Of a stretch of 20,548 bases of DNA, positions 4,658 through 20,548 are shown piece by piece. Where the stretch lies: positions 1 through 20,548 of the forward strand of contig JAADBR010000068.1 in assembly GCA_009995705.1 (NCBI GenBank), given 5' to 3'. Numbering within the stretch: the stretch's first letter is position 1; every line of letters starts with the position of its first letter. The notes beneath the pieces were generated by a model that did not search any database, had not been told where the DNA came from, and was given only the letters and a program-made list of their open reading frames with translations. The position numbers and the translations under genes were made by a program. This DNA is from Microcystis aeruginosa W13-11 (lineage in GTDB: Bacteria > Cyanobacteriota > Cyanobacteriia > Cyanobacteriales > Microcystaceae).

Positions 4658-4670
4658 AGATTTACCTCAA

Positions 4671-7600: not shown

Positions 7601-7793
7601 TCGATTGAACTATTCCTAACTCTCCAGTGAGAAAGCTAGTTAATTCTTCTTTGCTTAACTGAAAAGGATGACGATTATCAGCAGTGGTGGGACTCTTTTT
7701 CGGGGTGCTAGTTTCTCCCCAAAGATAAAAGCTACCCTTCTGAATAAATTCGTCCGTTGATTGGGGAATCCAAGTACCGTGAAGAATTTTCAT
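4671..7793 (-). CDS. SNF2/Rad54-family DNA-dependent ATPase (DEAD/DEAH helicase-like)
   Basis: 1040 aa. The N-terminal ~500 residues correspond to the bacterial SNF2-associated region. The ATPase core begins about residue 560: motif I DDMGLGKT (about 587-594), motif II DEAQN (about 690), motif III LTGTPVENR. The C-terminal helicase lobe has LIFTQFTEIGD, SLKAGGVGITL, and QATDRAFRIGQ near 965-975. All core motifs are intact and length is normal for the bacterial group, so it should be an active translocase that remodels DNA-protein complexes. It does not unwind DNA in the usual sense. Upstream lacks an obvious Shine-Dalgarno sequence. Transcribed with the SWIM gene; involvement in repair or transcription recycling is inferred from the family. 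Confidence 0.93.
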   Translation of the reverse strand: MKILHGTWIPQSTDEFIQKGSFYLWGETSTPKKSPTTADNRHPFQLSKEELTSFLTGELGIVQSNYNPLSRQFVPRYFLLPSLDNQPVPSLELLRYLEKEPPENSQWQSWQIDCYPLNPVLKLLNDLHFICLYNSSEIQLGADLLFWYHYSQAFKEIILKDNYIPAFKYRELATNNQKTANFAIYPLWEIISATYETNLDRYLEYLPRICLAGAENPHASPQLYDPKTLLRHFSESLLNEIVTNTAIPASFDKKISETIIGDCFSVAKTAGFLQTAAALEKYQQWQTWRQQLLGDQNISSFSLGFKLTEAPENNIEQWQITFILISKQDPSLRLELDEYWYAVPETRTSIRGHFGQDLDKNILLSLGYAARIYPPIWQGLETDKPTGFSLNLTEAFTFLKETAWILEDAGYKVIIPAWWTPEGRQRAKVRLKTTSKSGKSTPVSKGIFSLENIIEYQYELAIGEETITQEEWQQLINTKTPLVKFRGQWVELEQNKMQQMLDFWQKYQQENPEMNLIELMKKAAEYPEEIIVETDEFLGSMLEKLQNPSQLEPIENPPQLQGTLREYQKRGVAWIQYLEQLGLNGCLADDMGLGKTLQVIARLVGEREGDNNVLPTLLVAPTSVVGNWAKEIEKFAPHLQVLIHHGSKRYQDEKEFQIVASQKDIVITSFTLVRKDLKLFNSQSWQRLVIDEAQNIKNPKAAQTKAILSLSAQHRLALTGTPVENRLLDLWSIFNFLNPGYLGKETQFRKAFEVPIQKQNDRLQSTVLKKLVEPFILRRVKTDKQIIKDLPDKVENKQYCNLTKEQASLYEVVIKEVEKQLEEAEGIKRKGLILSTLMRLKQICNHPRQFLQDNSAFTPERSHKLERLGEMLEEVILEGDSLLIFTQFTEIGDSLQKYLKQTFRYNTYYLHGGTSQPKREQMIEEFQHPETEPSVFILSLKAGGVGITLTKANHVFHFDRWWNPAVENQATDRAFRIGQQKNVFVHKFVTLGTLEERIDEMIEEKKKVANAIVSNDESWLTELDNESFRQLIALNKQTII

Positions 7794-8200
7794 GGTTTTT
7801 AATTAGTACAAAAGAACTTGAATGAGGGCAATACTTAGCCTCTAGAAAAATTGTAGCGATTATGGGAGGATTCTCCACACTTTTTTGTCCCTTTGCGAAC
7901 CCAGAAGTCCTCTGCATAGGAGAAAAAGGTTAATAGCGCTTCTAGGACAAAAAACCATTGAGAAGAGGTGATCGGCGGTTTTTTGAGCTTAAAGCTTATC
8001 CCTATATGGGTTTATAGCTATTTTTGTTCTAGGTTTTGTTGAGGTTCCACTAAGAGGACTGTCTAATTATAGCAATTCTCCAAAATCCAGCCACAAGAGT
8101 TCGATCCCCCTGCCTTCGTCTCCCTTAAAATGGGAAAAAGGGGAAAGGGGAACTTAAATTCGATAATTTGATGTGTAGTTTTTGTGGGTGAGAATTAGTA
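7794..8200. other. 407-bp gene-free stretch with a repeat remnant
   Basis: No convincing coding frame was seen. Near 8104-8155 there is a gatccccctgcc...cccttaa...gggg sequence that shares its opening with the hairpin repeat at 3711, but its stem is degraded. Around 7985-8010 there are short palindromic pieces (agcttaaagct; ccctatatggg). The right part should hold the SNF2 promoter, but no clear -35/-10 pair stands out. The left end receives the end of the DUF3616 transcript. Confidence 0.5.
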
Positions 8201-9181
8201 TTAATTCACTTTTACCCAAATACTGCGGAAATATTTTTCGGGATTATTTTTATCGGGAATCTCTTTACAGGGAGTATTACCAACTCGCTTGATTGTACCA
8301 TCATCGCTTAAAATCTGAAAGCGATCTTGGAAATGGGGATCAAACAACAAAGCTTCTGGACGAAAACCGTCAGGGAATTGCAGTGATTCTATCTTTTCTG
8401 GTGCATCTTCTTTTTTTCCTGACCAAGTATATACAACAAATTGATCGCCTCCATAAAATTCTCCAGCAATAATTAAATATACTTCTAAAGAAGGCCAAAA
8501 TTCAATACTCCGAATTCCTAATCCTCCCAAGTCTAACAAGATAGGATCACCAAATTCAGCTTTAGCCGTGGTTAAATTAGTAACTAAACTCTTGGGATTT
8601 TTTATGGGTAATAAAAGAGCTTTACAGTTGGGGACAGGATTACGAAAACCGATCAAGATATTTCCGTCTGGAGTTGCCGTTAAACCTTCAATATTTAATC
8701 CTCCTTCAGCTTTGGGAGCTTTGGTTTCTGCTGTTTTGAAATCAAATATTTTAGCCAATTGAGAGTCTTCGATAATATCGCGCAATACTAACTGAGTATA
8801 GGACTCACCCACTTGAACTATACTAGAGCCGTCATCGGTAATTTTACTAGCAAAAAATTGATGGCGAGGTAGTTTTCGTTCAGCATTTTTATTGCGTCCA
8901 TGGGAAGTAATCCAATAGATTATGTCATTTAGCACAGTTACCCCTTCTAAGTCGATTTCTCTATTTTTAGGATTGTTTTTTAGCCAACCATTAATGTCAA
9001 TTGTTTCCAGGGCTTTTCCCGACTCTTGAGAGGAATAAATCCAGAGAATATTACCTAATTCTGGATCGGACTCATCATTACCAACAACAAATTTATTTTC
9101 TCCTAAGGCAATAGCTGCAGAAGCATCACAAAGTCCTTGATGTTTGATTTCTTGAATAATAGAAAAGTTGAGAGGTTGCAT
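8201..9181 (-). CDS. DUF3616 family protein (beta-propeller-like, cytoplasmic)
   Basis: 326 aa from the preferred start. The opening DASAAIALGENKFVVGNDE, the middle IEGLTATPDGNILIGFRNP and the late FRPEALLFDP are features of the DUF3616 family, whose biochemical role is unknown; repeated beta-strand blocks suggest a propeller. A longer frame opens at 9253, but a sigma70-type promoter lies inside that extension and AAGGAG sits 9 bp before the ATG at 9181, so 9181 is chosen. There is no signal peptide. It appears to be a single-gene unit, independent of the wall-enzyme cluster upstream. Confidence 0.8.
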   Translation of the reverse strand: MQPLNFSIIQEIKHQGLCDASAAIALGENKFVVGNDESDPELGNILWIYSSQESGKALETIDINGWLKNNPKNREIDLEGVTVLNDIIYWITSHGRNKNAERKLPRHQFFASKITDDGSSIVQVGESYTQLVLRDIIEDSQLAKIFDFKTAETKAPKAEGGLNIEGLTATPDGNILIGFRNPVPNCKALLLPIKNPKSLVTNLTTAKAEFGDPILLDLGGLGIRSIEFWPSLEVYLIIAGEFYGGDQFVVYTWSGKKEDAPEKIESLQFPDGFRPEALLFDPHFQDRFQILSDDGTIKRVGNTPCKEIPDKNNPEKYFRSIWVKVN

Positions 9182-9224
9182 GACTGTATTCTCCTTGTTA
9201 ACTGGAAAAGTGAGGATTGAGAAC

Positions 9225-9253
9225 ATTATAGGCGATAGAGGAGAAAAAGACAA
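9225..9253 (-). promoter_or_regulatory. Sigma70-type promoter of the DUF3616 gene
   Basis: On the minus strand: TTGTCT (9248-9253), a 17-bp spacer, then a perfect TATAAT (9225-9230). Transcription would start near 9218, giving a leader of about 37 nt with AAGGAG before the ATG at 9181. Confidence 0.65.
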
Positions 9254-9330: not shown

Positions 9331-10332
9331 TTATTTCTGAGTATTAGGTGATATGGGTTTACCAGTATTACGCACATTGATCAACTTCCCTAAAATATCA
9401 AACCAAAAAGGTGCGCCCATCGCCACGGCTACTCCTGTCATTAGCCAGCCAAAGATAGCTTGTAACCAGCCATTTTGTTCTTTTATTTGTTCACCGTTAA
9501 ACCATCCTTTTTCATTCCAACCAAGGGGCAGAGGTTGATTAACTTTTTCTAAATCCTTGATACTAACTTGTAATTTTTTTGTACATTCAGCGACTTTGTT
9601 AGGATCATCTTTAGCATCTTTAAAACAAGATTCATTAGTTTGAAAAACTTCTGTAGCCACCTGATTAATTCCCTGTCTTAAATTGGGATTTTTGGATAGT
9701 TGCTCAATGACATAAAAACTATCAATATTGAGCAAAGCAGCCGCTAAAAAACCAAAAGCAAAAGATACCCCCTTGGCATTTCTTTTATATACTCCCGATG
9801 TTCGCTCCATAATTTGAGTAAAAGTGTTGGCTATTTCATCAACAAAATCCTCCAGAGTTGGATTGTCATATTTGAGTTTGGTACTGTAACCTATTTCTAT
9901 CAATCTATCAATCGCTAATTTGTCTATTTTAGAAAAATCAGAAATACTAGCTAATTTCTTAAAGATTCCTGTTTTTTGTTGATCAAGATTATTGCCTAAA
10001 AAATCCGCTTTTAATAATTTTTCATTATCTGAAAGTTTACTATTAACTAGATTAATTAGGGACGATGCCAAAACCTTTGGTTCAACATAGGAAGGACCAA
10101 CTGACTTCCCCAAATTAGTGTATTGATTTAAACTTGATAATAACGATCCATTATTGTACAAAGATTTGACCGTCTCTTTCCCCAAGAATATTTCTAGGGC
10201 TTGTTTTAAATTTTTAGCCCGAAATTCTAGCAAGGCGGCTAATTGTTCCTGTAATTCGGAGATAATAAGGCTGGAAGCTAAGTAGATAAAAATTAGAGCA
10301 ACAATAATTTCGAGAAGGGTTCCTAGGTTCAT
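9331..10332 (-). CDS. Conserved hypothetical membrane protein at the end of the wall-enzyme cluster
   Basis: 333 aa. There is an N-terminal membrane segment (about 4-26) followed at once by an amphipathic, charged stretch (ELQEQLAALLEFRAKNLKQAL), a long soluble region, a second hydrophobic segment (about 188-206), a polar loop with two cysteines (236, 250), and a third segment (about 290-314) ending in APFWFDILGKLINVRNTGKP. I recall bacterial hypothetical proteins with this same N-terminal 'YLxxSLIxSExxE' and C-terminal 'GAPFWFDxLxKLxNxR' pattern, but no named function. GAGGT lies 7 bp before the ATG. It is last in the run of hydrolase genes, 58 bp after the serine hydrolase. Anchoring, export or holin-like release of the leaderless enzymes is conceivable but unproven. 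Confidence 0.7.
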   Translation of the reverse strand: MNLGTLLEIIVALIFIYLASSLIISELQEQLAALLEFRAKNLKQALEIFLGKETVKSLYNNGSLLSSLNQYTNLGKSVGPSYVEPKVLASSLINLVNSKLSDNEKLLKADFLGNNLDQQKTGIFKKLASISDFSKIDKLAIDRLIEIGYSTKLKYDNPTLEDFVDEIANTFTQIMERTSGVYKRNAKGVSFAFGFLAAALLNIDSFYVIEQLSKNPNLRQGINQVATEVFQTNESCFKDAKDDPNKVAECTKKLQVSIKDLEKVNQPLPLGWNEKGWFNGEQIKEQNGWLQAIFGWLMTGVAVAMGAPFWFDILGKLINVRNTGKPISPNTQK

Positions 10333-10390
10333 TTTTAAGACCTCACTATTGATTTTACAAGTTTTTGTTTTTAGTTATGACCAAACTAGA

Positions 10391-11875
10391 TTAAGCCAAT
10401 TCTTCGGTTAAAATGCGGCGGACAATTTCGGTGACAGCGGCGGCTAAATTGGTATCTCTCCCATCAAAATCAGCAAAAACTGGACTCGGACAACGTAAAG
10501 CTAAAGCAAAAGTTCTCAATTTTGCAGGAGTAAAACGTCGATCAACAAATTTAACAAATACGGTATAAGTCATTGACCCAGAAGTAGCAGATACGTTTCC
10601 CCAACCTACTTTTGAAATAATCACTGGTTCACTGATAATATTCATAACTCCCAAGGTTTCAAAAGCTACATCTACATATCGTGCTGTATCATGACCCATT
10701 GCCCGAACTATGCTTTCTAAACTTTTCCATTGGGCTGAGGGAAGTTTAGCATTATTGGGTAAATGTAAATGCCAACCTAGCATGGAAATTAAGCGGGCTA
10801 GATCGTAAGCTGAAAGGGAATTGGTTGAAGTAGCTGCACCAACAGATCCTGAAGATAAGACAATATTTCCTGTCGTTGTGTCTTTAATTCTTGCAGGAGA
10901 AATTAATGGGTCTTCTCCATAGGAGCCAGTAAAATTTAGATTACTACTTCCTGTTTGTGTTTCAATCCATTTACTTAAAACTTCTCTTTTACTAAAGCTT
11001 TTAAATAAAGCCCCAATACGATTAGAAGATAGTCCCTGATAACTCACCATATCTTTTACTAAATCATTAAATCGGTTTTTAGGGGACTCAATCACACAAT
11101 CATCAATGTCTGTATTAATGGAGTTTTGATGAATTTGACAAACTGTATTTAAAACGCCAATAAATTTAGTGGTACTCCACCATAAAGCAACAGGTGTTAG
11201 GGCATCTTTTCCTAACCATCGGGCTTTAATTGGGCTATTACTATCGCTAAAGCTTCCGATACAAACACAAGCATGAGAGATATTACTGGGCAGAAAACTT
11301 AAGCCTGTATTATCAATATTAGGCTGTTTTCCTAGACTAGGATAATCATCAAAATTAACAGTTTTGCCATTAGTTAGAGTAAAACTATCACCATAGGAAA
11401 TTAAAGATGTTCCATCTGGTTTTTGTGCCAAAAATGTCGGATAGTTAATAATTAATGGCTTGAAAGGAGATTGCTCAATACTTCGAGATACAAAAGCAGA
11501 AGAAGGTGTATTTTTATTAACAATCGGCGATGAGGCTTGAATTTGTTGAAGACGGGTAAGAATTGAACTTTGATTAGCTGCTTTAAGAACCGAGTCAACT
11601 TGCTTGGTTGTTAGCAATTTTTGGGCAATCTCTTGATTGATAGCTAGGGTATCGGAGGGAATGGGAAGACTCCCAATTTTTTTACAGAAATCAATTAATC
11701 CAGTCCAAGAAAAACTACTTGATTCTCCTAAATCTCCATCAATCCAACCACCACCAGGATAAAATCCTAAGTTAGCTAGTTTGGTTTGAATTTCTATTAC
11801 TAACCCTTTATCCGCTTTTAGTTGAGAACGGTTTAGGGTTTTGTTATCGTTGATAATGTCTTGTAAGGTAGCCAT
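10391..11875 (-). CDS. Peptidoglycan-binding SxxK serine hydrolase (beta-lactamase/DD-peptidase fold)
   Basis: 494 aa. The N-terminal ~100 residues resemble a peptidoglycan-binding helical domain (IEIQTKLANLGFYPGGGWIDGDLG). The larger C-terminal part shows the three signatures of penicillin-recognising serine enzymes: S234-T-T-K237, SSN at 283-285 (SxN), and KVG at 422-424 (KTG-like), with SAYDLARLISML between the last two as in class A-type enzymes. DD-carboxypeptidase, endopeptidase or an inactive relative are all possible; the KTG threonine is replaced by valine. There is no signal peptide. AAGGA lies 7 bp before the ATG. Given its neighbours a peptidoglycan substrate is more likely than an antibiotic. 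The fold assignment is from motifs alone. Confidence 0.65.
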   Translation of the reverse strand: MATLQDIINDNKTLNRSQLKADKGLVIEIQTKLANLGFYPGGGWIDGDLGESSSFSWTGLIDFCKKIGSLPIPSDTLAINQEIAQKLLTTKQVDSVLKAANQSSILTRLQQIQASSPIVNKNTPSSAFVSRSIEQSPFKPLIINYPTFLAQKPDGTSLISYGDSFTLTNGKTVNFDDYPSLGKQPNIDNTGLSFLPSNISHACVCIGSFSDSNSPIKARWLGKDALTPVALWWSTTKFIGVLNTVCQIHQNSINTDIDDCVIESPKNRFNDLVKDMVSYQGLSSNRIGALFKSFSKREVLSKWIETQTGSSNLNFTGSYGEDPLISPARIKDTTTGNIVLSSGSVGAATSTNSLSAYDLARLISMLGWHLHLPNNAKLPSAQWKSLESIVRAMGHDTARYVDVAFETLGVMNIISEPVIISKVGWGNVSATSGSMTYTVFVKFVDRRFTPAKLRTFALALRCPSPVFADFDGRDTNLAAAVTEIVRRILTEELA

Positions 11876-11917
11876 AATTTTGTCCTTGACAGTTAAAGTA
11901 AATAAAGGAAGAAAAAA

Positions 11918-12715
11918 TTAGAGAAGGTTTTTAATAACAACAAACCAAGGACGGCTGGTGTCTTTTACTTTGCCATTGCCATCAAGTTTAAGGGTCTTTT
12001 TGGTAACTGAATCACTGACATTTCCTCCAATAATATCAACTTCATTGATTCTTTTGGCTACTACTAAATCACAGTGAGATGCATATCCTTCTTTGCTATC
12101 GTAAGTGACCCCTAATTGACGAGGAGCGCAAACTAAATCACCTACTTCTGGGGTAACTTCATCAATTTTAAAAGCGATAAAAGGCGCATCAACTGTTTTA
12201 TCTTTTCTTTTTTTTACAGCGTCTCGAATATAAACTGAATGACTAGCATTGCGCTTAAATTTATCGGCTACACCTGCTTTTGTCATGATCCAAGAAATAA
12301 AGGCCGCTGACCAAGGTACATTACCTACATCAGTAGGATCATCAATATCGGTACGATTTAAACCTTCTTTCCAGTATTTGACAATTCGCTGCCAAAAGCC
12401 ATTTTCTCGTTCTTTTTTAGTTCCTTTTTCAAAAAATTCCCATTCTTCAGTAGCTATATCTACTAAAGTTTTCTTGAAGTTAGGATCAGAAAATATTTCG
12501 ACATGGGAGATAAAAGCAAACCAAGTGACAAGACCATTTTGGGGAGTGACTAATTGAATTTCCCAATGATTATTAGGTGCAGAACGATATTGCAATATTT
12601 CTAAAGTAGCATCTTCAGGTAAAGTAATTTTCTGGGAATCACTTAAGCTAATGCTATCTTGAGGGAAAGACTTAATAACAGTGTTGGTTAATGCTTTGAG
12701 AGTTTTATTAGCCAT
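11918..12715 (-). CDS. DUF2272 domain protein (NlpC/CHAP-like), probable wall enzyme
   Basis: 265 aa. The first ~75 residues look like an SH3-like binding domain. The rest fits DUF2272: PWSAAFISWIM (134-144), ASHSVYI (157-163), a PEVGDLVC turn (189-196), ASHCDLVV (212-219) and a GGN loop (230-232). DUF2272 is thought to be related to papain-like NlpC/CHAP peptidases; the position corresponding to a catalytic Cys reads Ser136, so activity cannot be assumed. There is no signal peptide. An ideal AAGGAG lies 6 bp before the ATG, inside a leader shared with the decayed gene at 19178. Confidence 0.7.
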   Translation of the reverse strand: MANKTLKALTNTVIKSFPQDSISLSDSQKITLPEDATLEILQYRSAPNNHWEIQLVTPQNGLVTWFAFISHVEIFSDPNFKKTLVDIATEEWEFFEKGTKKERENGFWQRIVKYWKEGLNRTDIDDPTDVGNVPWSAAFISWIMTKAGVADKFKRNASHSVYIRDAVKKRKDKTVDAPFIAFKIDEVTPEVGDLVCAPRQLGVTYDSKEGYASHCDLVVAKRINEVDIIGGNVSDSVTKKTLKLDGNGKVKDTSRPWFVVIKNLL

Positions 12716-12721
12716 GATAGT

Positions 12722-12737
12722 CTCCTTAATGAATAAA
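12722..12737 (-). promoter_or_regulatory. Ribosome-binding leader shared with 19186-19201
   Basis: The 16-bp plus-strand text ctccttaatgaataaa is identical at both places. On the minus strand it reads TTTATTCATTAAGGAG and is the Shine-Dalgarno leader of the DUF2272 gene here and of the small decayed gene at 19178. This points to duplication or selection of a common leader within the cluster. Confidence 0.6.
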
Positions 12738-12743
12738 GAACAA

Positions 12744-13586
12744 TTAGGATTTGTGCAGTGTATTTAAAGCACTTTTAATCTGGGTATCAGTAATCACAAA
12801 AGCAGTGAAGGTTTTGCTAGAATCACTCTTAACATGGGAGAAAGGATTTTTATCCGTAATTCCCAAAAAAGTATCAATCTTATTTCCTTTAATTGCACTT
12901 CCCACATCCGCTGCAAAGAAATACCCATCATGCTTCACCTTTTTACCCGAAGGCAAAATGACTTCTTTTCCTCTTGCATCAGGAATATAAATAACTGTTC
13001 CTAAAGGAATCACGGTTTTATCAACGGCAATAGTACGATAAGGAACTAAGATAAATCCCCCTGAACCATCCCCAAAGAGTCCCTTAGCTAAGGCAAATAA
13101 AGAGCGATTCATGGCTTGGACAATGGAATCTTTTAAGCTCGGGAAAAAGGGTTTACAATTAGTTTGAGCGGTTGTTCCTGTGGTAGCAAAGTTAAAGGTT
13201 TTTAGGGTATTGCTATCGGTTTTAACTTGTACAGTTCCTTCTAAAGCGGCCGTACACCAGTCTTTTTTAGACAGTTTAACGCCTAAAGAAGTACCACTGG
13301 AATTTTTTAAGGCAATGGCATCGGTCGCACTACTCGCTTGAGCTTGATGAACAAAGTAGAAAGTAGAAAATAGGGTCAATTTTTTATCTTTAACGCCTTC
13401 TGTCGGTTCAGGAAAATCAAAGATAATTTGAGATTCAGTTAGGGCAATTAGGACAGGAACAAATTTATCCTTTTGAGCGGGGGGAGTATAGCTAACTTGT
13501 GCGAATGCAGGAGAGACAAAGCTGCTCATAAGAATTAGATAAATTCCTGCGATAATTAATAGTAAGTGTCGCAAATATTGATTCAT
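12744..13586 (-). CDS. Secreted 3D-domain protein (MltA/RlpA-like double-psi barrel)
   Basis: 280 aa. Residues 1-29 form a clear signal peptide (hydrophobic LLLIIAGIYLILM, cleavage near SPAFA-Q). The C-terminal part is a 3D domain named for three aspartates, visible here as D220, D227 and D238 (HDGYFFAADVG...GNKIDTFLG) after the typical VPYRTIAVDKTVIPLGTVIYI strand. 3D domains form the catalytic barrel of lytic transglycosylases such as MltA and occur in resuscitation-type wall enzymes. AGGAG lies 6 bp before the ATG and overlaps the stop codon of the gene before it (9-bp gap), so translation is coupled. Likely a periplasmic glycan-strand enzyme. Confidence 0.8.
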   Translation of the reverse strand: MNQYLRHLLLIIAGIYLILMSSFVSPAFAQVSYTPPAQKDKFVPVLIALTESQIIFDFPEPTEGVKDKKLTLFSTFYFVHQAQASSATDAIALKNSSGTSLGVKLSKKDWCTAALEGTVQVKTDSNTLKTFNFATTGTTAQTNCKPFFPSLKDSIVQAMNRSLFALAKGLFGDGSGGFILVPYRTIAVDKTVIPLGTVIYIPDARGKEVILPSGKKVKHDGYFFAADVGSAIKGNKIDTFLGITDKNPFSHVKSDSSKTFTAFVITDTQIKSALNTLHKS

Positions 13587-13595
13587 GATTAGCTC

Positions 13596-14534
13596 CTAAG
13601 AACCAATTTCAGTAAGGATATCATTAAGTTGTTTTGACCACTGGTCTAGGTTAAAATTCTGGGGATCGTCGTGATCTCCTGCGTCAATATCTAACACGAC
13701 ATGAAAAGCGGGAATTAACCATTTTCCGCGCCGTACACTGGCGGCAATATAAACAACTGCTAGGCGATCTAATTGTGCTTTGGTAAACCCCGGTTCGGGC
13801 GATTTAGCATCATTTTTTGTCGGTGGAGAACACTGTGTTTGACCAGAGTTAGGTTGACATTTTCGGGGTTGAACTAATTCAACTGCCAAAAATAAACCCT
13901 TACATTTATTGACCCCACAAAATTGATCTGATTCTCGTTTTGTAGAACGCCAAGGGATATTAAAATCCTTACGAGTGACGGAATCTCCTACTCGATTAAT
14001 AATGATATGAGCAGGGGATTTTTCGCCACTACCATATTGATTTAAGTTGTTAAACCTCCAACTAGCTCCATTAATATTATTGGGAAAGGGATCATTTCCC
14101 AAATTAGGAGTGCTGGTATCATGAATAATAAAATAACGAGCCAATTCTGCACTGGGATTATTATTATTAGTTCGTGAGACAGGGTTATCTAATGAACCGC
14201 CAATGTCTGCTTCGTTAATTCCTTGAGCTTGTAGATATCGTCTTAATTGCTCTTTACTGATATCAATGGTGGGTCTAGTTAAGAGTTGATCGAACGGAAC
14301 AGGTAAACTGGTTAAAGTTGGACCCACATTCCCAAAAATCTTGGGTTGACGCAATAAACATTTAGCCTGATCGATAGAAGAAATTTGAGAAGTCGGTACT
14401 ATTTGACAAACGGTTTGAGCTTGGATTTTTGCTTGAAAAAATAAGATTATTACTAAAGTAAATCCAAAGATCATGAATCGCTGAAAAAGCTTAAATAACA
14501 CGGCTTTATCACTCCTTGAAATCTTGAAATACAT
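13596..14534 (-). CDS. Secreted N-acetylmuramoyl-L-alanine amidase-like protein (Amidase_2/PGRP fold)
   Basis: Up to 312 aa. A signal peptide is present (hydrophobic 22-33, cleavage near QAQ at 38-40). Amidase_2-type features: RYFIIHDTS with H138, AHIIINRVGDSV with H176, PAFHVVLD with H278, and AGDHDDPQNF with H288 and D290, matching the pattern of zinc ligands and catalytic residues of PGRP-like amidases. The extra loop with CGVNKCKG and two more cysteines suggests an oxidised, exported fold. Start is uncertain: the ATG at 14534 has only a distant GAGG, while GTG at 14501 has AAGGAG 10 bp upstream and leaves a shorter signal peptide. It directly overlaps the ribosome site of the 3D gene downstream. 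Confidence 0.65.
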   Translation of the reverse strand: MYFKISRSDKAVLFKLFQRFMIFGFTLVIILFFQAKIQAQTVCQIVPTSQISSIDQAKCLLRQPKIFGNVGPTLTSLPVPFDQLLTRPTIDISKEQLRRYLQAQGINEADIGGSLDNPVSRTNNNNPSAELARYFIIHDTSTPNLGNDPFPNNINGASWRFNNLNQYGSGEKSPAHIIINRVGDSVTRKDFNIPWRSTKRESDQFCGVNKCKGLFLAVELVQPRKCQPNSGQTQCSPPTKNDAKSPEPGFTKAQLDRLAVVYIAASVRRGKWLIPAFHVVLDIDAGDHDDPQNFNLDQWSKQLNDILTEIGS

Positions 14535-14642
14535 AGAAAGACAAATTTCCTCTAACTAGATAACTGGACATGACTGACTAAAATTGATGCTTGAGATCGG
14601 CAAGCTGAATTGATGACGATAACCCCAAGAAATTCGAGGAAA

Positions 14643-15458
14643 TCAAGCTAGATAAAATTGTTGATAGCCGACGCTAACAGGTGTGGTGGTTCCTTTCAAA
14701 ACAAAGACTGCATCGTTAAAGAACTTCATAAAGCGATCGCAGTGTGCGGAAGTACCAATGGGAAATTGACGCATTCGCCAACGATTATTGGAATTTTTGT
14801 TTTCAAATAGAGAACCAGCATTATAAGCACAGGCAACTTTGGGCGGATCTAACAAAGTTTTCAAGCGTTGATCAGCAATAAATGACGTTCCTGCTTGAAT
14901 AGAAATACTGGCATTTTTCAAGTCATCTCGATCGATGGTTGAATTATGTAATGTACCTCTGGCCGTAGAAATTAATGTCTGCATTAAGCCAACACTGATC
15001 AAATGAGGGGTGATAGAATCAGATACATAACCCGGTTCTTTGCGGATAGCGTCTGCTTTTCCGTTCGATTCGGTGGCGATGGTGGTAATAATAATTACTG
15101 CCGGAACATTAAAGTGTTTTGACCATTGATTAATTTCATCAGAAAAATTATTCCAAATTTTGGTGACGGTTACTGGTTGACCACTGGTTCTCTCAATGCC
15201 GCTACCCTCAATTTCTACTCCATCTTCTACCAATCGCCAGCGTGCACTATTAGGAAAAGCCTGATGAAAATCTTCTAGGGGATTATTGTCATTGTCATCG
15301 GCAAGATCGGGAATTTCTAAAACTTGTCCCACGGAAATTTGATTGGGATTGGCAATATCGTTGGCTTCTTGAACTACCACAAATTTTGAAGCATCACCAT
15401 AAAATTTTAAAGCAATTCCTCTGAGGGTATCTCCAGATTTAATCGTGTACGTTTGCAT
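14643..15458 (-). CDS. LysM plus SLT lytic transglycosylase
   Basis: 271 aa. The N-terminal LysM (2-50: YTIKSGDTLRGIALKFYG...ISVGQVLEIP) binds GlcNAc glycans. The catalytic domain has E130 in TIATESNGKAD, SVGLMQTL and VACAYNAGS, the three usual motifs of soluble lytic transglycosylases, which cleave MurNAc-GlcNAc bonds to leave 1,6-anhydro ends. There is no signal peptide although the substrate is outside the cytoplasm. AGGAG lies 8 bp before the ATG; the downstream gap is 108 bp, the widest in the hydrolase core. Confidence 0.88.
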   Translation of the reverse strand: MQTYTIKSGDTLRGIALKFYGDASKFVVVQEANDIANPNQISVGQVLEIPDLADDNDNNPLEDFHQAFPNSARWRLVEDGVEIEGSGIERTSGQPVTVTKIWNNFSDEINQWSKHFNVPAVIIITTIATESNGKADAIRKEPGYVSDSITPHLISVGLMQTLISTARGTLHNSTIDRDDLKNASISIQAGTSFIADQRLKTLLDPPKVACAYNAGSLFENKNSNNRWRMRQFPIGTSAHCDRFMKFFNDAVFVLKGTTTPVSVGYQQFYLA

Positions 15459-15490
15459 AAAATCATCTCCTGAAGTTATCTTATCGATCT

Positions 15491-16393
15491 TTACTCAATT
15501 GTTACTGTCCGAGTTGTGCCATCCCAAGTTACAGAAAGATTCAGTGCTTGTGCCAAATCTACTATTTTCACAAAGCCGAATTGTTCAATTTTCTTGATGA
15601 TTTCTTGTTGGCTAGTTCCAGCGGGAATATCCATAGGTTTATTGCTATGTTCAATCAACAAAAATCCTAAAGGTTTTGCGTCTTCGCCATCGGCAAATTT
15701 TAATTCCATCACTTCTTGATCATTGGCAGTAATAATTTTCCAATTAAAAGTATCTAGCAAAGGACGAATCTTGACGATACTTTTTTCATTAAATATCTGT
15801 GCTTCCCGGAAGGCTTTTCCTTGAACAACTGCTGTGATACTAGCTGGAGTTTCCACTAAACCAGAAACGCCCGTTAATTTGGTTTTGACTAGCGTTCTAA
15901 ATTGCTCTCCTACCTGTATTTTACTTAAGGATGTATCCCAAGGTAAAACCATCGGATCCCATTTTCCGCGTTGGGGTTTATTAGGAAACTCCCGTTCCAC
16001 TTCTCCATGACCTAAAACGGTTTTAGCTGTTACTTCAATATCATAAAAATCACACAGTTCTGCTACTACCTGCGCCATGGTTTCCCATTGATTTTTAGTC
16101 ATCGGAAACTTACCCGCATTGAAGGGTTTTTCCACAGCACCACTCATACAACAGACGCTAACTCCGATTGAACCCGTACCAAACAGTGCCGTATGAGCCG
16201 CATAAACATTATCTGCGGTGGAAACATTATCTTTAATTGAGTGAGTTCCTCGCACTAAGTTACCATCATCCTCGATTAAAATATGATAATGAGATTTATC
16301 ATTGCTAGATGCTTTATATCCCCCTGCCGTCCAATGAATAATGATTCTTTTCATCGAACAGTTAGGCATCCATGTTGTCGGTACAATTCCCAT
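15491..16393 (-). CDS. N-acetylmuramoyl-L-alanine amidase, Amidase_2 type
   Basis: 300 aa. The T7-lysozyme-like fold is clear: H20 in RIIIHWTAGG, SHYHILIEDDG (34-44), GSIGVSVCCMSG, H129 in VLGHGEV and D146 in GKWDPMVLPWD; H20, H129 and D146 fit the zinc site. It would cut the MurNAc-L-Ala amide bond. Residues ~165-300 form a second, beta-rich domain ending in VTWDGTTRTVTIE, resembling a copper-amine-oxidase-N-like repeat often used for wall attachment. No signal peptide. AGGT lies about 8 bp before the ATG. Confidence 0.88.
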   Translation of the reverse strand: MGIVPTTWMPNCSMKRIIIHWTAGGYKASSNDKSHYHILIEDDGNLVRGTHSIKDNVSTADNVYAAHTALFGTGSIGVSVCCMSGAVEKPFNAGKFPMTKNQWETMAQVVAELCDFYDIEVTAKTVLGHGEVEREFPNKPQRGKWDPMVLPWDTSLSKIQVGEQFRTLVKTKLTGVSGLVETPASITAVVQGKAFREAQIFNEKSIVKIRPLLDTFNWKIITANDQEVMELKFADGEDAKPLGFLLIEHSNKPMDIPAGTSQQEIIKKIEQFGFVKIVDLAQALNLSVTWDGTTRTVTIE

Positions 16394-16442
16394 AATTTTT
16401 ACCTCTCAATTATTCAATTATCTGTTTAGTCAATGAATTAAA

Positions 16443-17993
16443 CTAAGCTCTCACGGGAGGGCGAATAGCAAAGTGAATGTGGTCATCATGACCAGGAGCA
16501 AAATTGCATAGTTTTTGTCCCAAAAAAGCTTCATTTCTCAGGGTCGCGTCATTAAAAAGCACTTGACTAACCAGTTTTTGTCGTCTCATGGCTTTAATCA
16601 GAGCGCGGGCTGCGGTTCGATCAAAATTGCCACTTTCCCAAGTGATTCCGCCATGTTGTCCATCCGTGCGCGGAAGCCTTACATCACACATTAAACCCGT
16701 CTCATGGCCTGCGTGTTGCGGGGTGTCTCCCCCTGTGGGTTTACTAACATCATTAATAGAAAAAGCGGCCTTACTGGGATTAGAAACTCGGAATGTATTA
16801 TGATAGTCAGCAGCAATTTCTAAGATGGCATCTGCTAACCAACTTGTTCCAAAATCATGATCGTCATTGGTTTGATTTTTCTCATGATTAATTAAGCTAA
16901 TAGAAGGATTACTATCGGGCATGGTTTGCCAACGAGGTGCATTGGCCGCTTCTAACCATTTCTGAGTGGTATTTCCCACATCTATTCGTCCATCTCCGCC
17001 TAGAGTTTCTCTCCCTGCAATAATCGATTGAAATAATTGAATAGCAAGAATAAAACCCGTATTCAAAGCTGCACTATTAGGATCACCAACAAAAGTATAG
17101 CCGAGGGAATGTAATCGCTGTTTAACCGCAATCTTATCGGCTGTTCGGTTGATTCCTCCTAATCCAACACTTCCCGTTAAATTCAGGGTAATTGCACCTG
17201 TTGCCTTGGGTGGAGAAGCCTTGATTTCGATTTCTACACTTTGATTATCAATGACTATTTTAACAATGCGATCGCCTGCTTGTAAAAAGACAAATTCGGC
17301 TTTCCATTTCCCTCCTTCTTCTATTTCAATATCATCTAGGGGGAATTTATTATCAACTAAAACGGTCAATTTTTTGCCTTTGTCGGCTGCTGCTGCGGTT
17401 CCTTCAATCTGAAAACTTTGTCCCACTTCCACTTCTTTGGGAAAACTGGTTACTTGTAAGGTATCGGGGGGTGGTGGAATAACAATTCCGTTGGCTTTTG
17501 CTAGTAAAGTCCTCGCTTCGGGAACAAGTTTTAACACTTTGCTGATATAACTTATATCGGCAGCAAAGCCTTTACTTTGAATAAAACCGATAAAGTTTTC
17601 AGGAGTTTGAGTATTTTCTTCTAATCCTTTATAGGTTTCACGGGTTAAAAATTTCCAATAACCTCGCAGAAATTTGTCAATATCCGTGAATAAGCAGAAG
17701 TCCATCGCTTCCGATTCAGAAGGTACTTTAATCGATTTAGGAGTAGCAAAGGGAGTCATTTCCTTGCGCCATTTTAAACCAGCGAAGTTTTTCTGTTCCT
17801 CGGCTAGTTTACTGGTGGCTCTGGCGGACTCTAATAGCCATTGAGCGAGAGAAACTTCTTTTAAATGACTAAAATGATCGGGAGGAATGTCTGTGAGATT
17901 AACCGATCTTTGAGAAGTGTTGTCAACTTCTTGAAAAATAGTAGCTAAGTCAGTTCTAGCATATTGTTGAACTAAGTCATCCAGTAAGGCCAT
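16443..17993 (-). CDS. Glucosaminidase / Ig-like / PG-binding / LAS-type endopeptidase fusion
   Basis: 516 aa. Domain order (numbering from the chosen start): a GH73-like glucosaminidase (about 40-140; VSLAQWLLESARATSKLA with probable catalytic E55, then NFAGLKWR), a Pro-rich hinge, an Ig-like beta domain (about 178-260), a PG_binding_1-type domain (about 285-350; AVKQRLHSLGY...GFILAIQLFQ), and a C-terminal LAS-type metallopeptidase like M15/M74 (H430xxGxxxD437 and H502DDHIH507). Two different bond types would be cut by one chain. Start: ATG at 17993 has AGGAG with ideal 6-bp spacing, while an in-frame ATG at 17999 abuts that site and is rejected. No signal peptide. Confidence 0.82.
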   Translation of the reverse strand: MALLDDLVQQYARTDLATIFQEVDNTSQRSVNLTDIPPDHFSHLKEVSLAQWLLESARATSKLAEEQKNFAGLKWRKEMTPFATPKSIKVPSESEAMDFCLFTDIDKFLRGYWKFLTRETYKGLEENTQTPENFIGFIQSKGFAADISYISKVLKLVPEARTLLAKANGIVIPPPPDTLQVTSFPKEVEVGQSFQIEGTAAAADKGKKLTVLVDNKFPLDDIEIEEGGKWKAEFVFLQAGDRIVKIVIDNQSVEIEIKASPPKATGAITLNLTGSVGLGGINRTADKIAVKQRLHSLGYTFVGDPNSAALNTGFILAIQLFQSIIAGRETLGGDGRIDVGNTTQKWLEAANAPRWQTMPDSNPSISLINHEKNQTNDDHDFGTSWLADAILEIAADYHNTFRVSNPSKAAFSINDVSKPTGGDTPQHAGHETGLMCDVRLPRTDGQHGGITWESGNFDRTAARALIKAMRRQKLVSQVLFNDATLRNEAFLGQKLCNFAPGHDDHIHFAIRPPVRA

Positions 17994-18041
17994 TGTCATC
18001 TCCTGTTAGCAACAAAGAATAAATCATTTTTGATTGGGTAA

Positions 18042-18067
18042 TAATAGACCGAAATTTCGGTCTATTA
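18042..18067. other. 26-bp perfect palindrome at the 3' end of the Amidase_3 gene
   Basis: The left arm taatagaccgaaa (18042-18054) is the exact complement of the right arm at 18055-18067, which includes the gene's TAA (18065-18067). A second small hairpin, AATCA-tttt-TGATT, follows at 18022-18035. No T-run follows the large stem on the minus strand, so it is a poor intrinsic terminator. A mRNA 3'-end/processing element or a protein-binding operator is possible. Confidence 0.75.
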
Positions 18068-18820
18068 CACTATTTTTGCAACCTCTTCAAACACAAAATG
18101 TTCGTCCCGATTGCCAAAACTTTTATCAGGCCATTTCACAAAAAAATGTCTTTCTTCTCGGCGCACATCTAACACTGGATAATCTCCCGGTTCAATCTCG
18201 AATAAGGTACTTGGCTCTAATTCAGAAGATTGCTCTGTGGAGGGTTTAAGAACAGTTTTTTGAGTAATTCTTAGGGTCGCTGGTTCTGGTGTGGATTTGT
18301 CCTCAGCATCCCCAATTAAACCAACTTTAATCGCTTCTGCCATCTTTTCTGCATCAAAAAGAGCCATGTCTGCTTGGGAATCCACAAAGCAACATTCAAT
18401 TAAAATCGCTGGCATTGAAGTATTTACCAACACAGAAAAACGGGTATTTTTTACTCCTCTATTTTTAAATTCTAGCTTGACAATTTCCGTCAAAACTGAT
18501 TTAGCGATCGCTTGAGAAGTTTGACTAATACCATAAACCTCCGCTCCCATTGCCTTGGTGGTGGGTTGAAAGGCATTAAAGTGAATAGAAACAAAAATAT
18601 CAACGTTATTACTATTGGCTTTATTGGCTCTTTTTCGCAAAGAATCATTAACACTAACGGCACTGGTCGGGGTGCAGTTAATTACTGAATGACCCGCTGC
18701 GGCTAATTTAGCAATTAGGCGAGTACCCACCTCTTTAATAACAACATCTTCCTGTCTAACTCCCGATGCGCCAATGTCATGAGGTGGGCAATTATGACCC
18801 ATATCAATCCCAAATTTCAT
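18065..18820 (-). CDS. N-acetylmuramoyl-L-alanine amidase, Amidase_3 (zinc) type
   Basis: 251 aa. Ligands and catalytic residues of the AmiC/CwlM-like fold are all visible: H9 in DMGHN, E24 in RQEDVV, H80 in VSIHFNA and E142 in LIECCFVD. After residue ~165 a linker leads to a small SH3-like end (PGDYPVLDVRREERHFFVKW). No signal peptide is present and the protein starts directly with the catalytic strand, as in phage and sporulation amidases. GGAGGT lies 7 bp before the ATG. First well-preserved gene in the core run; it ends inside a perfect palindrome. Confidence 0.92.
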   Translation of the reverse strand: MKFGIDMGHNCPPHDIGASGVRQEDVVIKEVGTRLIAKLAAAGHSVINCTPTSAVSVNDSLRKRANKANSNNVDIFVSIHFNAFQPTTKAMGAEVYGISQTSQAIAKSVLTEIVKLEFKNRGVKNTRFSVLVNTSMPAILIECCFVDSQADMALFDAEKMAEAIKVGLIGDAEDKSTPEPATLRITQKTVLKPSTEQSSELEPSTLFEIEPGDYPVLDVRREERHFFVKWPDKSFGNRDEHFVFEEVAKIV

Positions 18821-19015
18821 CTGTATACCTCCAGTTTCTTCAATGTTTATTTATTGGTCAATTCCTCTGGATATACTCTACCTCAATTAAACTCATAAAA
18901 ATTATATTTTTACAAAACTTTACTATTGTTTTATGGCAATTTTTATAGAAAGTTCGGCAGCAAAAATGCTATTCTAAAGCCTAATTTAGAACAGCCATAC
19001 AATCAATTATTTTTC
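18821..19015. other. AT-rich spacer upstream of Amidase_3
   Basis: No coding frame was seen. It holds the candidate -10 for the downstream genes and the GGAGGT site at the amidase start. The spacer is the largest non-coding gap inside the cluster, so it is the most likely place for an internal promoter. Confidence 0.5.
18901..18906 (-). promoter_or_regulatory. Candidate -10 element for the wall-enzyme operon
   Basis: On the minus strand the perfect hexamer TATAAT lies 80 bp before the Amidase_3 ATG. No good -35 is found at 16-18 bp, so it could depend on an activator or be fortuitous in AT-rich DNA. Confidence 0.3.
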
Positions 19016-19178
19016 TTAACTATTAACTTGACTCCTTGCAGCTTTTAGCGTATCAGAGACTAAAGCGGGCAAGCCATGAAATAGCTTAGTTCCTGTGGCA
19101 ATAGCCAAGGCTGATAAAACTGCATTTCAAGGATCATTCAGCCAACTTTTCAGTTTTTGAAAGAGACCGTTGACTCAT
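19016..19178 (-). pseudogene. Decayed small gene (about 53 aa originally)
   Basis: A perfect AAGGAG leader, identical to that of the DUF2272 gene, sits before an ATG at 19176-19178, but that frame ends after 14 residues. In the neighbouring frame a protein-like sequence runs on: VNGLFQKLKSWLNDP, a TGA at 19127-19129, then NAVLSALAIATGTKL...LKAARSQVNS to TAA at 19016-19018. The total of 163 bp is one base off a 54-codon gene, so one single-base indel near the start plus one nonsense change would explain it. The product would have been a small protein with a mildly hydrophobic alanine-rich centre. I do not recognise it. Confidence 0.55.
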
Positions 19179-19205
19179 AACTTAGCTCCTTAATGAATAA
19201 ATAAA

Positions 19206-20435
19206 TTAAACAAATTGATCTGTAGCCAGAATTTGAGCCAATTTATTCTCCCTGTCAGCCAGAGTTTCTGTGGTGGGAATATGGTCTAATAAACTGCTAT
19301 AGAAAAAATAGGCAAAACCAGCAAAATTTCGCTCACGAGTCTCCTGAGTTTGTGCTTGAATTAATTGGAAATTTACCCGTCTATCACTGGGTTTTAAACC
19401 AGTGAGAATACCGATGACGGTGGGAATATGTTCTCGCGCTGCTTTTACCTCTAATTTATCGATTTCGCCTTCAAAACTAGGCAAATTTGGACGATAAACT
19501 TGTAAGGCCATTTCTTCGATTAATCCTTCCTTTTCCCATGCTTCCCAATCAGCTAAAGCATGATCAACAGAAAATCCTAAAGGATTGGGAGAAATGGAGA
19601 GAATACAATCGTCTTTTTCCGCTTTAATGGTTTTAAAAATCAATCGCACTAATTGAGTTAACTTCTCCTTACGCCAATCTTTAAATTTCGCTAATTGGGG
19701 ATTACTTAAGGGACTAACTGAACCAGTTTCCTCTTGAAAAAGTTTGATAGTAAAGGATTCAAACCCCATGCTAAAATCAAAATTTTTAGTACCATTAGGC
19801 AAGAATTTTGCGTGATGAATAGCGAAGTGATCATCTAATTGAATACCATCAATTTCATAGTTTTTAACTACTTCACGAATAAGACTAACCCAAAAATCTT
19901 TAACTTCAGGATGAGCGGGATTTAAGCGGCAATTTCCATCACCATCAACGGTATTTTTCTGTTGATGAGTAAGCATAAACCAATCTGGTTTTTGGGCAAA
20001 TAAGGGAGCAGCTGGGGGAACCATTAAACCATATTCAAACCAGGCAATAATCCGAAAGTTATACTTTTCTGTCTGATTAATCTCAATGATTTCTGCTAGT
20101 AGATCTCTACCGACTAACTCTTTTTCAAGGTTGACTTTTTTGAGTTTTTCCTTATCGGCAGTGAAAACATTATCAGCAATTTGTGATTGAAAAAACACAT
20201 AGCCTTTGTTCCAAACTACTAGATAAAGAGTATTAAAACCTAAATTTTTAAGTTTTTCCAACCCAGTTTTTAAGTTGTCTTTAGACTTGAGAATATCACT
20301 GTCAACATTGGTGATCCAAACTCCTCGTATTTCTTCTACTTGTACATGATCATCAAAGAAAAATCCCGCTTTTCCCACTGAACCTTGTTCTTCGGCTAAC
20401 TTGACAGAATAATGATTATTTTGGCGAAAATAGGA
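19206..20435 (-). CDS. DigH/YddW-like glycosyl hydrolase (GHL10, PF02638 type), 5'-truncated by IS
   Basis: The catalytic domain starts at EEIRGVWITNVDSDIL, where GHL10 proteins normally start, and contains the conserved EIDGIQLDDHF (probable catalytic Asp pair), FRIIAWFEYG and LSISPNPLG. The family includes E. coli DigH, which cleaves denuded peptidoglycan glycans, so a wall-glycan substrate fits the neighbours. A GTG at 20378 could initiate a 390-aa protein, but the frame stays open upstream (SYFRQNNHYSVKLAEEQG) to the insertion-sequence junction at 20435 and beyond into the element, so the native N-terminus is probably lost. Only a weak AAGG precedes the GTG. The domain itself appears complete. 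It precedes the small decayed gene by 27 bp. Confidence 0.75.
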   Translation of the reverse strand, partial: SYFRQNNHYSVKLAEEQGSVGKAGFFFDDHVQVEEIRGVWITNVDSDILKSKDNLKTGLEKLKNLGFNTLYLVVWNKGYVFFQSQIADNVFTADKEKLKKVNLEKELVGRDLLAEIIEINQTEKYNFRIIAWFEYGLMVPPAAPLFAQKPDWFMLTHQQKNTVDGDGNCRLNPAHPEVKDFWVSLIREVVKNYEIDGIQLDDHFAIHHAKFLPNGTKNFDFSMGFESFTIKLFQEETGSVSPLSNPQLAKFKDWRKEKLTQLVRLIFKTIKAEKDDCILSISPNPLGFSVDHALADWEAWEKEGLIEEMALQVYRPNLPSFEGEIDKLEVKAAREHIPTVIGILTGLKPSDRRVNFQLIQAQTQETRERNFAGFAYFFYSSLLDHIPTTETLADRENKLAQILATDQFV

Positions 20436-20548
20436 GTAAGGATTCAGGTCAGGGGATTGACAAAAACAGAAAAAAGTGTAGATTGAGAGGATGAAGCAAA
20501 AAGAACCGCCGCCGCTACTAGACAGGGAAAGCCTGAAAAACCTGACAC
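20436..20548 (+). mobile_element. Tip of an IS66-like insertion sequence (right copy, reads out of window)
   Basis: This is a perfect reverse-complement match to 1-113, with the GTAAGG tip at 20436. A promoter-like TTGACA (20457-20462), 16-bp spacer and TAGATT (20479-20484) lie before the transposase ATG at 20491; if used, the transcript would be nearly leaderless. The adjoining bases (20428-20435, aaatagga) differ from those at the left copy, so no shared target duplication is visible. Confidence 0.7.
20491..20548 (+). CDS. IS66-family transposase, N-terminal fragment cut by window edge
   Basis: Identical to the fragment at the left edge (MKQKEPPPLLDRESLKNLT) and leaving the window at its last base. 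Identity of all 58 coding bases in both copies means recent transposition, gene conversion, or one element seen twice in an assembly. Confidence 0.55.
   Translation, partial: MKQKEPPPLLDRESLKNLT

Follow-up and report, generated by a model that had tools for sequence, protein, structure and literature searches.

The window, a stretch of 20,548 nucleotides from Microcystis aeruginosa W13-11 (contig JAADBR010000068.1, positions 1 to 20,548), carries on its minus strand a run of genes for peptidoglycan (PG)-active proteins. The sequence itself agrees with an origin in Microcystis, as the nearest genome compared has 42% of sampled words in common with it, and two of its proteins have their closest named relatives in this genus. 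The run extends from 18820 to 8201 with intergenic gaps of 9–108 bp, as delimited by the open reading frame (ORF) list and Pfam. It encodes, in this order, an Amidase_3 protein, a glucosaminidase with an M74-like part, an Amidase_2 protein, a LysM-SLT protein, a second Amidase_2-like protein (ami2b), a 3D protein, a DUF2272 protein, an SxxK protein, a membrane protein and a DUF3616 protein, and a GHL10 gene is situated 385 bp upstream of the tight run. The run is a polymorphic island, in which three different hydrolase sets occupy one and the same chromosomal site in Microcystis. It is best read as an exchangeable arsenal stored for envelope lysis and not for wall turnover. More tentatively, it may represent one filling of a horizontally moving envelope-lysis island, which would bring about the defensive or altruistic death of its own infected cell.

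One insertion site with three fillings

The empty-site stretch of one genome (G007; genomes bear G numbers and fetched loci L numbers) was compared with 12 loci and the window, and two of the loci, L016 and L022, gave no match. Right of the site, homology starts at position 419 in every filled locus reaching that far, and the window has the same edge at 7927. Its right flank (7552..7927, no strand), common to the empty sites, is matched by positions 419–800 of the query at 92.7%, the match running from 7927 to 7552. To the left, G009 and G012 remain homologous up to approximately 379 and G004 up to 345; in G001 and G002, a transposase-type insertion breaks the homology off at 270. The site is one fixed chromosomal spot of about 40 bp beside an SNF2 helicase gene, which together with a SWIM zinc-finger gene occupies 3818–7793. 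This SNF2 copy is present at 97–99% identity in 10 of the 12 Microcystis genomes and absent from G003 and G008, which are not scorable at the site. Among the others, the site is empty in G006, G007 and G011 and filled in G001, G002, G004, G005, G009, G010 and G012. The two flanks of G002 are on two contigs, and the G010 island was placed by gene order because its cassette and SNF2 gene lie on different contigs.

Three cargos fill the site. Cargo A (G001, G002, G009 and the window) consists of the run from Amidase_3 to DUF3616 together with GHL10. Cargo B (G005, G010 and G012, with Pfam annotation of the G005 copy) contains, between GHL10 and DUF2272, a PG-binding protein, two proteins with a C-terminal SH3_3, an SH3_3 protein with an Rv2525c-like hydrolase, another SH3_3 protein, a protein combining SH3_3 and GHL10, a Lipase_3 protein, and fragments of DUF3616 and 3D. 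Cargo C (G004) comprises a GH24 lysozyme with a PG-binding domain, a membrane protein, a weakly SH3-like protein and three familyless proteins, followed by DUF3616. The SxxK and membrane-protein genes are absent from half of the 12 Microcystis genomes (6/12).

The genes of the island have also been exchanged in a patchwork. Compared with G001, the synonymous divergence (dS) is 0–0.005 for ami2b, LysM-SLT and 3D and 0.04–0.22 for the other island genes, with 0.09–0.10 for the flanking SNF2 and SWIM genes, and the SxxK protein is 91% identical to that of G009 and about 60% identical to those of G001 and G012. In the Microcystis comparisons with dS > 0.03, the ratio of nonsynonymous to synonymous divergence (dN/dS) of the PG genes is 0.13–0.37, so that these genes are under purifying selection; the membrane protein reaches 0.46 with G001, and the SNF2 and SWIM genes range from 0.07 to 0.13. 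In G009 and G002, the 3D gene (L013 9164–10324 and L019 1170–2324) has kept its signal peptide, after which an unrelated part follows. This replacement part, without a Pfam match itself, resembles the GH75 protein of L135, and the L013 version ends in an immunoglobulin (Ig)-type module. The LysM-SLT gene of G009 is split by a transposase-type ORF (L013 5210–8101).

Such a site bears on the view that these are ordinary genes of wall turnover or colony remodelling, clustered by chance. AmiC-like, SLT, 3D and DigH-like families include housekeeping enzymes, two proteins of the run carry signal peptides, and purifying selection acts on the PG genes, all of which would suit such a role. However, housekeeping wall-turnover genes should be present in all strains of the genus, while the site is empty in 3 of the 12 genomes, the content is swapped between strains, and a related set is borne on a plasmid in Nostoc. 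Wall turnover is therefore improbable, and wall remodelling, one of the uses proposed by the first-pass annotation of this DNA, is likewise unlikely, given the three empty sites.

Enzymes, shared module and phage likeness

The same annotation had described an unbroken minus-strand run of diverse PG-active families, and this description is borne out by Pfam, motifs and fold. The enzyme family assignments are well supported, with at least six PG-hydrolase families standing side by side, although 3 of the 10 proteins had no match in the Pfam scan. All genes of the run, and GHL10, are on the minus strand. The Amidase_3 protein (ami3, 18065..18820, Pfam E 2.3e-32) lacks a signal peptide and ends in a C-terminal shared module, to which the window copy matches weakly. 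The next protein (16443..17999), also without a signal peptide, combines a glucosaminidase domain (Pfam E 1.3e-13) with what we take to be an Ig-like stretch and an M74-like endopeptidase with its zinc motif; its homologue at L123 matches Peptidase_M74 at E 7e-4, below the cut-off. The Amidase_2 protein (ami2a, 15491..16393, Pfam E 3.1e-11) and the LysM-SLT lytic transglycosylase (14643..15458, Pfam SLT 3.3e-14 and LysM 3.3e-9) are equally devoid of signal peptides.

Two proteins with signal peptides follow. In ami2b (13596..14534), the invariant residues H138, H176 and H278 and a DDP motif are retained, as expected in Amidase_2 zinc enzymes. The 3D-domain (MltA-like) protein (12744..13586) was recognised by Pfam (3D E 1e-15), and its signal peptide by hydropathy. 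The two are tied together since in other genomes they are fused, a 3D domain (PF06725) being attached to ami2b in 8 of the 120 homologues listed (P0192, P0231, P0233–P0235 and P0238–P0240). The DUF2272 protein (11918..12715, Pfam E 7.7e-33) is papain-like, with an N-terminal shared module and no signal peptide. PMC10318531 describes DUF2272 as papain-like with Ser replacing Cys, leaves its activity open, and treats it together with the type VI secretion system amidase Tse1.

The SxxK protein (10391..11875, no signal peptide) has a PG-binding-like N-terminus, and a Pfam match to PG_binding_1 is found in its family only in the relative at L113. Its SxxK, SxN and KxG motifs are intact in all 17 sequences compared (17/17). 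The predicted model is of high quality (predicted local distance difference test, pLDDT, 91; predicted template modelling score, pTM, 0.93), and the fold search places residues about 188–492 in the class A beta-lactamase/penicillin-binding protein A (PBP-A) fold. The protein thus displays both the motifs and the fold of penicilloyl-serine transferases, and it may act as a DD-peptidase. By sequence, the comparison with the PDB was unconvincing, the best match (E 6e-4) being an FHA-domain protein at profile positions 61–187. The membrane protein (9331..10332) shows three hydrophobic segments by eye and matches neither Pfam nor PADLOC; its AlphaFold2 model is poor (pLDDT 73, pTM 0.56). The run closes with the DUF3616 protein (8201..9253, Pfam E 1e-11), a family that recurs at cassette ends in Microcystis and at L160, and weakly in a second island. 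The longest island protein in the window has 518 residues. Promoter-like sites (30 vs 36.1 expected) and terminator-like sites (13 vs 9.6 expected) were uninformative on operon structure.

At the upstream end, the GHL10 gene (glycosyl hydrolase-like 10, DigH-like, 19206..20435, Pfam E 1.7e-73) is truncated at its 5' end. Its agreement with four relatives ends at 20435 in the sequence comparison, and beyond lies a repeated element (20436..20548, no strand) that breaks the gene and has no match to the GHL10 loci of the four relatives; residues 1–41 of the open frame of this element match many places in Microcystis genomes. The window copy is thus without its start. In the relatives, the GHL10 N-terminus carries a shared module of approximately 70 residues, part of which the window copy retains. 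In the gap between GHL10 and ami3 (18821–19205), inspection by eye shows a short broken coding-like stretch, which may be left over from a gene since lost. At the far end of the window, a plus-strand gene (253–1512) encodes a protein with a near-identical SQNTQGEG/GK repeat run and a weak match to a bacterial Ig domain.

The best sign in the sequences that the enzymes may act at one place is this module, which links GHL10, Amidase_3 and DUF2272 of cargo A and has no Pfam match in these runs. A profile of the N-termini of DUF2272 and DUF4127 proteins recovers the GHL10 N-terminus with E 5e-6 (389 sequences) and the window Amidase_3 with just 0.8; conversely, a profile of the Amidase_3 C-terminus recovers GHL10 with E 2e-6 and DUF2272 with just 0.02. 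A joint hmmsearch profile, made after the first matches had been seen, gives E 8e-8 to 8e-6 for three further Amidase_3 copies and 1e-3 for the window copy; among 321 control ORFs, the best reaches 0.46. Furthermore, wall-binding modules (LysM, PG_binding_1 and SH3_3) are common in the run and in related cargos and loci, and a simple hydropathy scan finds no signal peptide in six of the eight PG-active proteins of the tight run.

Several proteins resemble phage lysins, and the island could consist of domesticated phage lysis genes that have accumulated at a hot spot of insertion. Five of the 10 proteins have a match among the PHROG endolysin families, namely ami3, the glucosaminidase, ami2a, the LysM part of LysM-SLT, and DUF2272. 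Endolysins of two Rhizobiales phages, Sinorhizobium phage PBC5 and Rhizobium phage vB_RleM_PPF1, match the N-terminal catalytic domain of ami2a at 53% and 50% identity, respectively, and two viral contigs carry relatives of ami2a at 50–51% identity; a GH24 lysozyme is part of a sibling cargo. On the other hand, DNA near-identical to the block is missing from 50,697 phage and 72,556 plasmid records, and single-protein scans of the viral contigs, which detect close relatives only, found none for ami2b, ami3, the glucosaminidase or DUF2272, four of the five proteins scanned. The block also contains far more lysins than one phage carries, and the Pfam scans recognised no phage structural gene in the window, in agreement with the first-pass annotation. 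A phage origin of the whole block was rejected, the phage likeness having been shown for the single ami2a domain only, and a phage-derived collection is an unlikely account of the island.

Related cassettes and receptor-type genes

A second variable site in Microcystis holds comparable material (L132 8762–14621 in G002, L133 6989–11953 in G007 and L134 5446–13538 in G001). One flank, with what is presumably a cysteine-synthase-like gene, is found at all three loci, and the other flank is common to two of them. A Tle1-like lipase of 369 residues (PF09994, E 1.7e-84, Pfam on the G002 copy) adjoins the flank. It is followed by CHAP, DUF4127, Ig-type and DUF2272 proteins in G002, by GH24 and DUF4127 in G007, and by CHAP, DUF3616-like, DUF4127 and Ig-type proteins in G001. 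Modules are common to both sites, as the GH24 protein of G004 (first site) matches that of G007 (second site) over its full length with E 1e-176.

Cassettes of this kind are rare, as the low family counts indicate. Among 244 genomes across the Cyanobacteria, relatives were found in 14 for SxxK (E 1e-3), in 4 for DUF2272 (E 1e-10), in 8 for the glucosaminidase protein (E 1e-20) and in 34 for the Amidase_3 type (E 1e-30, mostly matches of 170–180 residues), and the cassette-type SxxK protein occurs in 23 of 388 genomes of the order (E 1e-100). At L160 of a distant cyanobacterium (G293), glucosaminidase, 3D, DUF2272, SxxK and DUF3616 retain the order of the window. L015 (G017) carries LysM-SLT, GHL10, DUF2272 and a broken SxxK, and L089 carries Amidase_3, VanY and ami2b. 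At L113 (G218), SxxK, M15, GH25, VanY and GHL10 each possess PG_binding_1, with alpha/beta-hydrolase-type genes adjoining, and L164 (G281) is a transposon-riddled remnant. The Nostoc plasmid pNPM5 (L159 7279–20667) encodes, in one direction, an M74-like and a GH25-like protein (both matches below the Pfam cut-off), GHL10, M15, an SH3_3 protein and SxxK; among the query proteins, its parts are closest to the Microcystis cargos and L113.

Many relatives stand elsewhere by themselves. No PG gene adjoins SxxK in 27 of the 32 fetched non-Microcystis loci, in which only the query proteins were recognisable, and VanY occurs alone or in small groups at the fetched loci. Outside the Cyanobacteria, only one or two of 77 loci with an ami2b relative showed a further gene of the set. 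This result comes from a weak ORF screen, which knew the window proteins only and did not detect ami2b itself at 17 of 80 loci. Membrane-protein relatives are present in 47 of the 244 cyanobacterial genomes (E 1e-10). A role of the membrane protein as a cassette-specific holin was considered and is weak, since relatives at six fetched non-Microcystis loci (L136–L141) have no adjacent PG-hydrolase gene; at L136, one PG-binding ORF is found about 6 kb away. Homologues scattered at unrelated loci, which would have spoken for chance clustering, thus exist for the SxxK, ami2b and membrane-protein families, whereas the L160 order is kept. As a unit, the set recurs, with the L160 order kept and cassettes in other genera and on a plasmid, but it is not fixed, its content being swapped wholesale. 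With single genes broken in several strains as well, no single enzyme combination can be obligatory.

Receptor-type genes, which resemble those of immune receptors, lie beside some of these cassettes. A gene with a common N-terminal helix-turn-helix (HTH)-like part and an NB-ARC region (the name given in the plasmid record) is present at four loci; at pNPM5, L113 and L089 it also possesses WD40 repeats, and at L146 it adjoins a single VanY gene. In pNPM5, the NB-ARC-WD40 gene is located upstream, with two other genes before the hydrolases. At L123 and L124, the HTH part is fused to Uma2, and at L160, an HTH-only ORF of 104 residues is about 1.5 kb away. We take the HTH part to belong to the vMAP and signal transduction ATPase with numerous domains (STAND) world. 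In these neighbours in other cyanobacteria, the Uma2 part matches PDC-S03 and the WD40 parts match HEAT-ARM_XIII, both of them defence models. Among 57 non-Microcystis loci, found via PG and membrane-protein queries and with L158 counted as one split gene, the HTH part occurs in 6 of 15 loci with at least two PG genes vs 1 of 42 with one or none (Fisher p = 8e-4), and the association persists without the orthologue L124 (5/14 vs 1/42, p = 0.003).

Proposed function and known systems

In the proposed mechanism, the enzymes would be stored in the cytoplasm, out of contact with the wall. A breach of the inner membrane, caused by infection, a lipase, the cassette membrane protein or a receptor-triggered death response, would then allow them to reach the sacculus. 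There, the modules would hold them in place while glycan, amide and peptide bonds are cut together, resulting in complete lysis. The likeliest use would be the defensive or altruistic death of the infected cell, and the release of lysins onto neighbours may be a by-product. Self-lysis is favoured because receptors are linked to cassettes elsewhere and exporters are lacking. We infer conflict as the purpose of the islands, as well as the trigger, release and target of the enzymes.

Several observations weigh against this interpretation. Neither the window nor the fetched Microcystis island loci contain an NB-ARC or HTH gene, so that the trigger is not seen there, and no PADLOC model matches the five window proteins tested. 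The HTH association was tested post hoc, and its six loci are mixed, comprising three with NB-ARC (L089, L113 and L159), two with HTH-Uma2 (L123 and L124) and one with HTH only (L160). Both ami2b and 3D carry signal peptides, and a holin role of the membrane protein is weak, its family standing alone at the six loci named above. In relatives, members of the set are broken: SxxK in G001, G002 and G017, LysM-SLT in G009, and 3D, which is shortened, in G005, G010 and G012. Moreover, swapping would be unexpected if the cell's own wall were the sole target, and favours attack on varied targets.

The last point leads to antagonism, a doubtful possibility but one that deserves weight because enzymes exchanged so widely point to varied targets. 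The island would then be a bacteriolytic library against colony or mat neighbours, set free when some cells lyse, in vesicles or through an exporter, and the producer would be safe with the enzymes stored in its cytoplasm and its own wall beneath the outer membrane. The make-up resembles antibacterial effector sets (amidases, glycosidases, endopeptidases, Lipase_3 and the Tle1-like PF09994), strain-to-strain swapping is accompanied by modular shuffling, and several wall-binding modules (LysM, PG_binding_1 and SH3_3) are present. However, most of the proteins are without signal peptides, neither an exporter nor an immunity gene is recognised in the window, and no small partner genes lie between the enzymes. 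The membrane protein could be an immunity partner.

The lack of a contractile sheath in several genomes counts against antagonism and, simultaneously, against the view that the set is a payload delivered by a contractile injection or type VI system whose genes lie elsewhere. Sheath genes (PF04984, the only family of this machinery searched) are present in 3 of the 12 Microcystis genomes (G001, G002 and G012), all of which carry the island and its effector-like families. They were not found in the island-bearing G004, G005, G009 and G010, which, for four of the seven island-bearing genomes, is in line with the earlier statement that no injection-system gene accompanies the set. The distribution (3/7 island-bearing vs 0/5 other genomes) gives a one-sided p of 0.16, calculated by hand. 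No sheath, spike or adaptor gene was noticed in the islands, though no aimed search was made. Such a payload is very improbable.

Beyond these readings, the cassettes may form an undescribed class of cyanobacterial conflict systems, a bolder proposal that we consider rather unlikely. The class would consist of exchangeable cassettes of 3–9 mostly signal-less, wall-addressed envelope hydrolases that attack PG glycan, amide and peptide bonds as well as lipids. In some lineages, NB-ARC/WD40 immune receptors would arm them. Spread on plasmids and chromosomal hot spots, they would totally lyse the infected cell or intruding bacteria, as a bacterial parallel to inflammasome-type lytic death. The literature already describes effector domains that attack PG within STAND-linked conflict systems (Kaur et al. 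2020, PMC7159879) and, more generally, conflict loci directed against PG (PMC12419801); no description of multi-hydrolase cassettes of this kind was found in the open-access literature searched, and nothing on this locus was seen in PMC11237433. If the main reading of the island as an arsenal for envelope lysis is right, colony-forming cyanobacteria possess, independently of any secretion system known so far, an extensive and interchangeable collection of enzymes that break walls and membranes. It would provide a genetic handle on cell lysis in Microcystis blooms, with its release of cell contents, phage resistance and killing of neighbours, and whether cyanobacteria undergo programmed lysis, a long-standing question, could be tested with a single deletion. 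A ready stock of natural lysins would also be at hand, with a shared module that has not been described before.

Four known kinds of system resemble the cassettes in part. Type VI effectors (Tae, Tge and Tle) belong to the same enzyme classes, and the second island contains the Tle1-like PF09994; the cassettes differ in having several enzymes per locus, with no adjoining secretion machinery and no recognised immunity partners. Phage holin-endolysin cassettes likewise place signal-less lysins with wall-binding modules beside a membrane protein, and some catalytic domains here are phage-like, but the run has about nine enzymes, with no phage genes recognised in the window. With polymorphic toxin systems, the islands share strain-variable content and the exchange of catalytic and accessory modules, as in the 3D signal peptide with a swapped C-terminus. 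In contrast to those systems, the enzymes here stand alone instead of forming exchangeable tips of one large carrier. No such carrier with a C-terminal toxin and an immunity gene is present in the window, and none was noticed in the islands of relatives.

Compared with STAND and NOD-like receptor (NLR) conflict systems, the cassettes possess a whole array of PG hydrolases, and no receptor gene lies near the Microcystis islands. These systems are nevertheless close in other respects. According to PMC7159879, they occur mostly in multicellular bacteria and include PG-attacking effectors, lysozyme-like and papain-like in System 3 of that paper. A STAND-type (NB-ARC) partner is found in four of the related loci described here.

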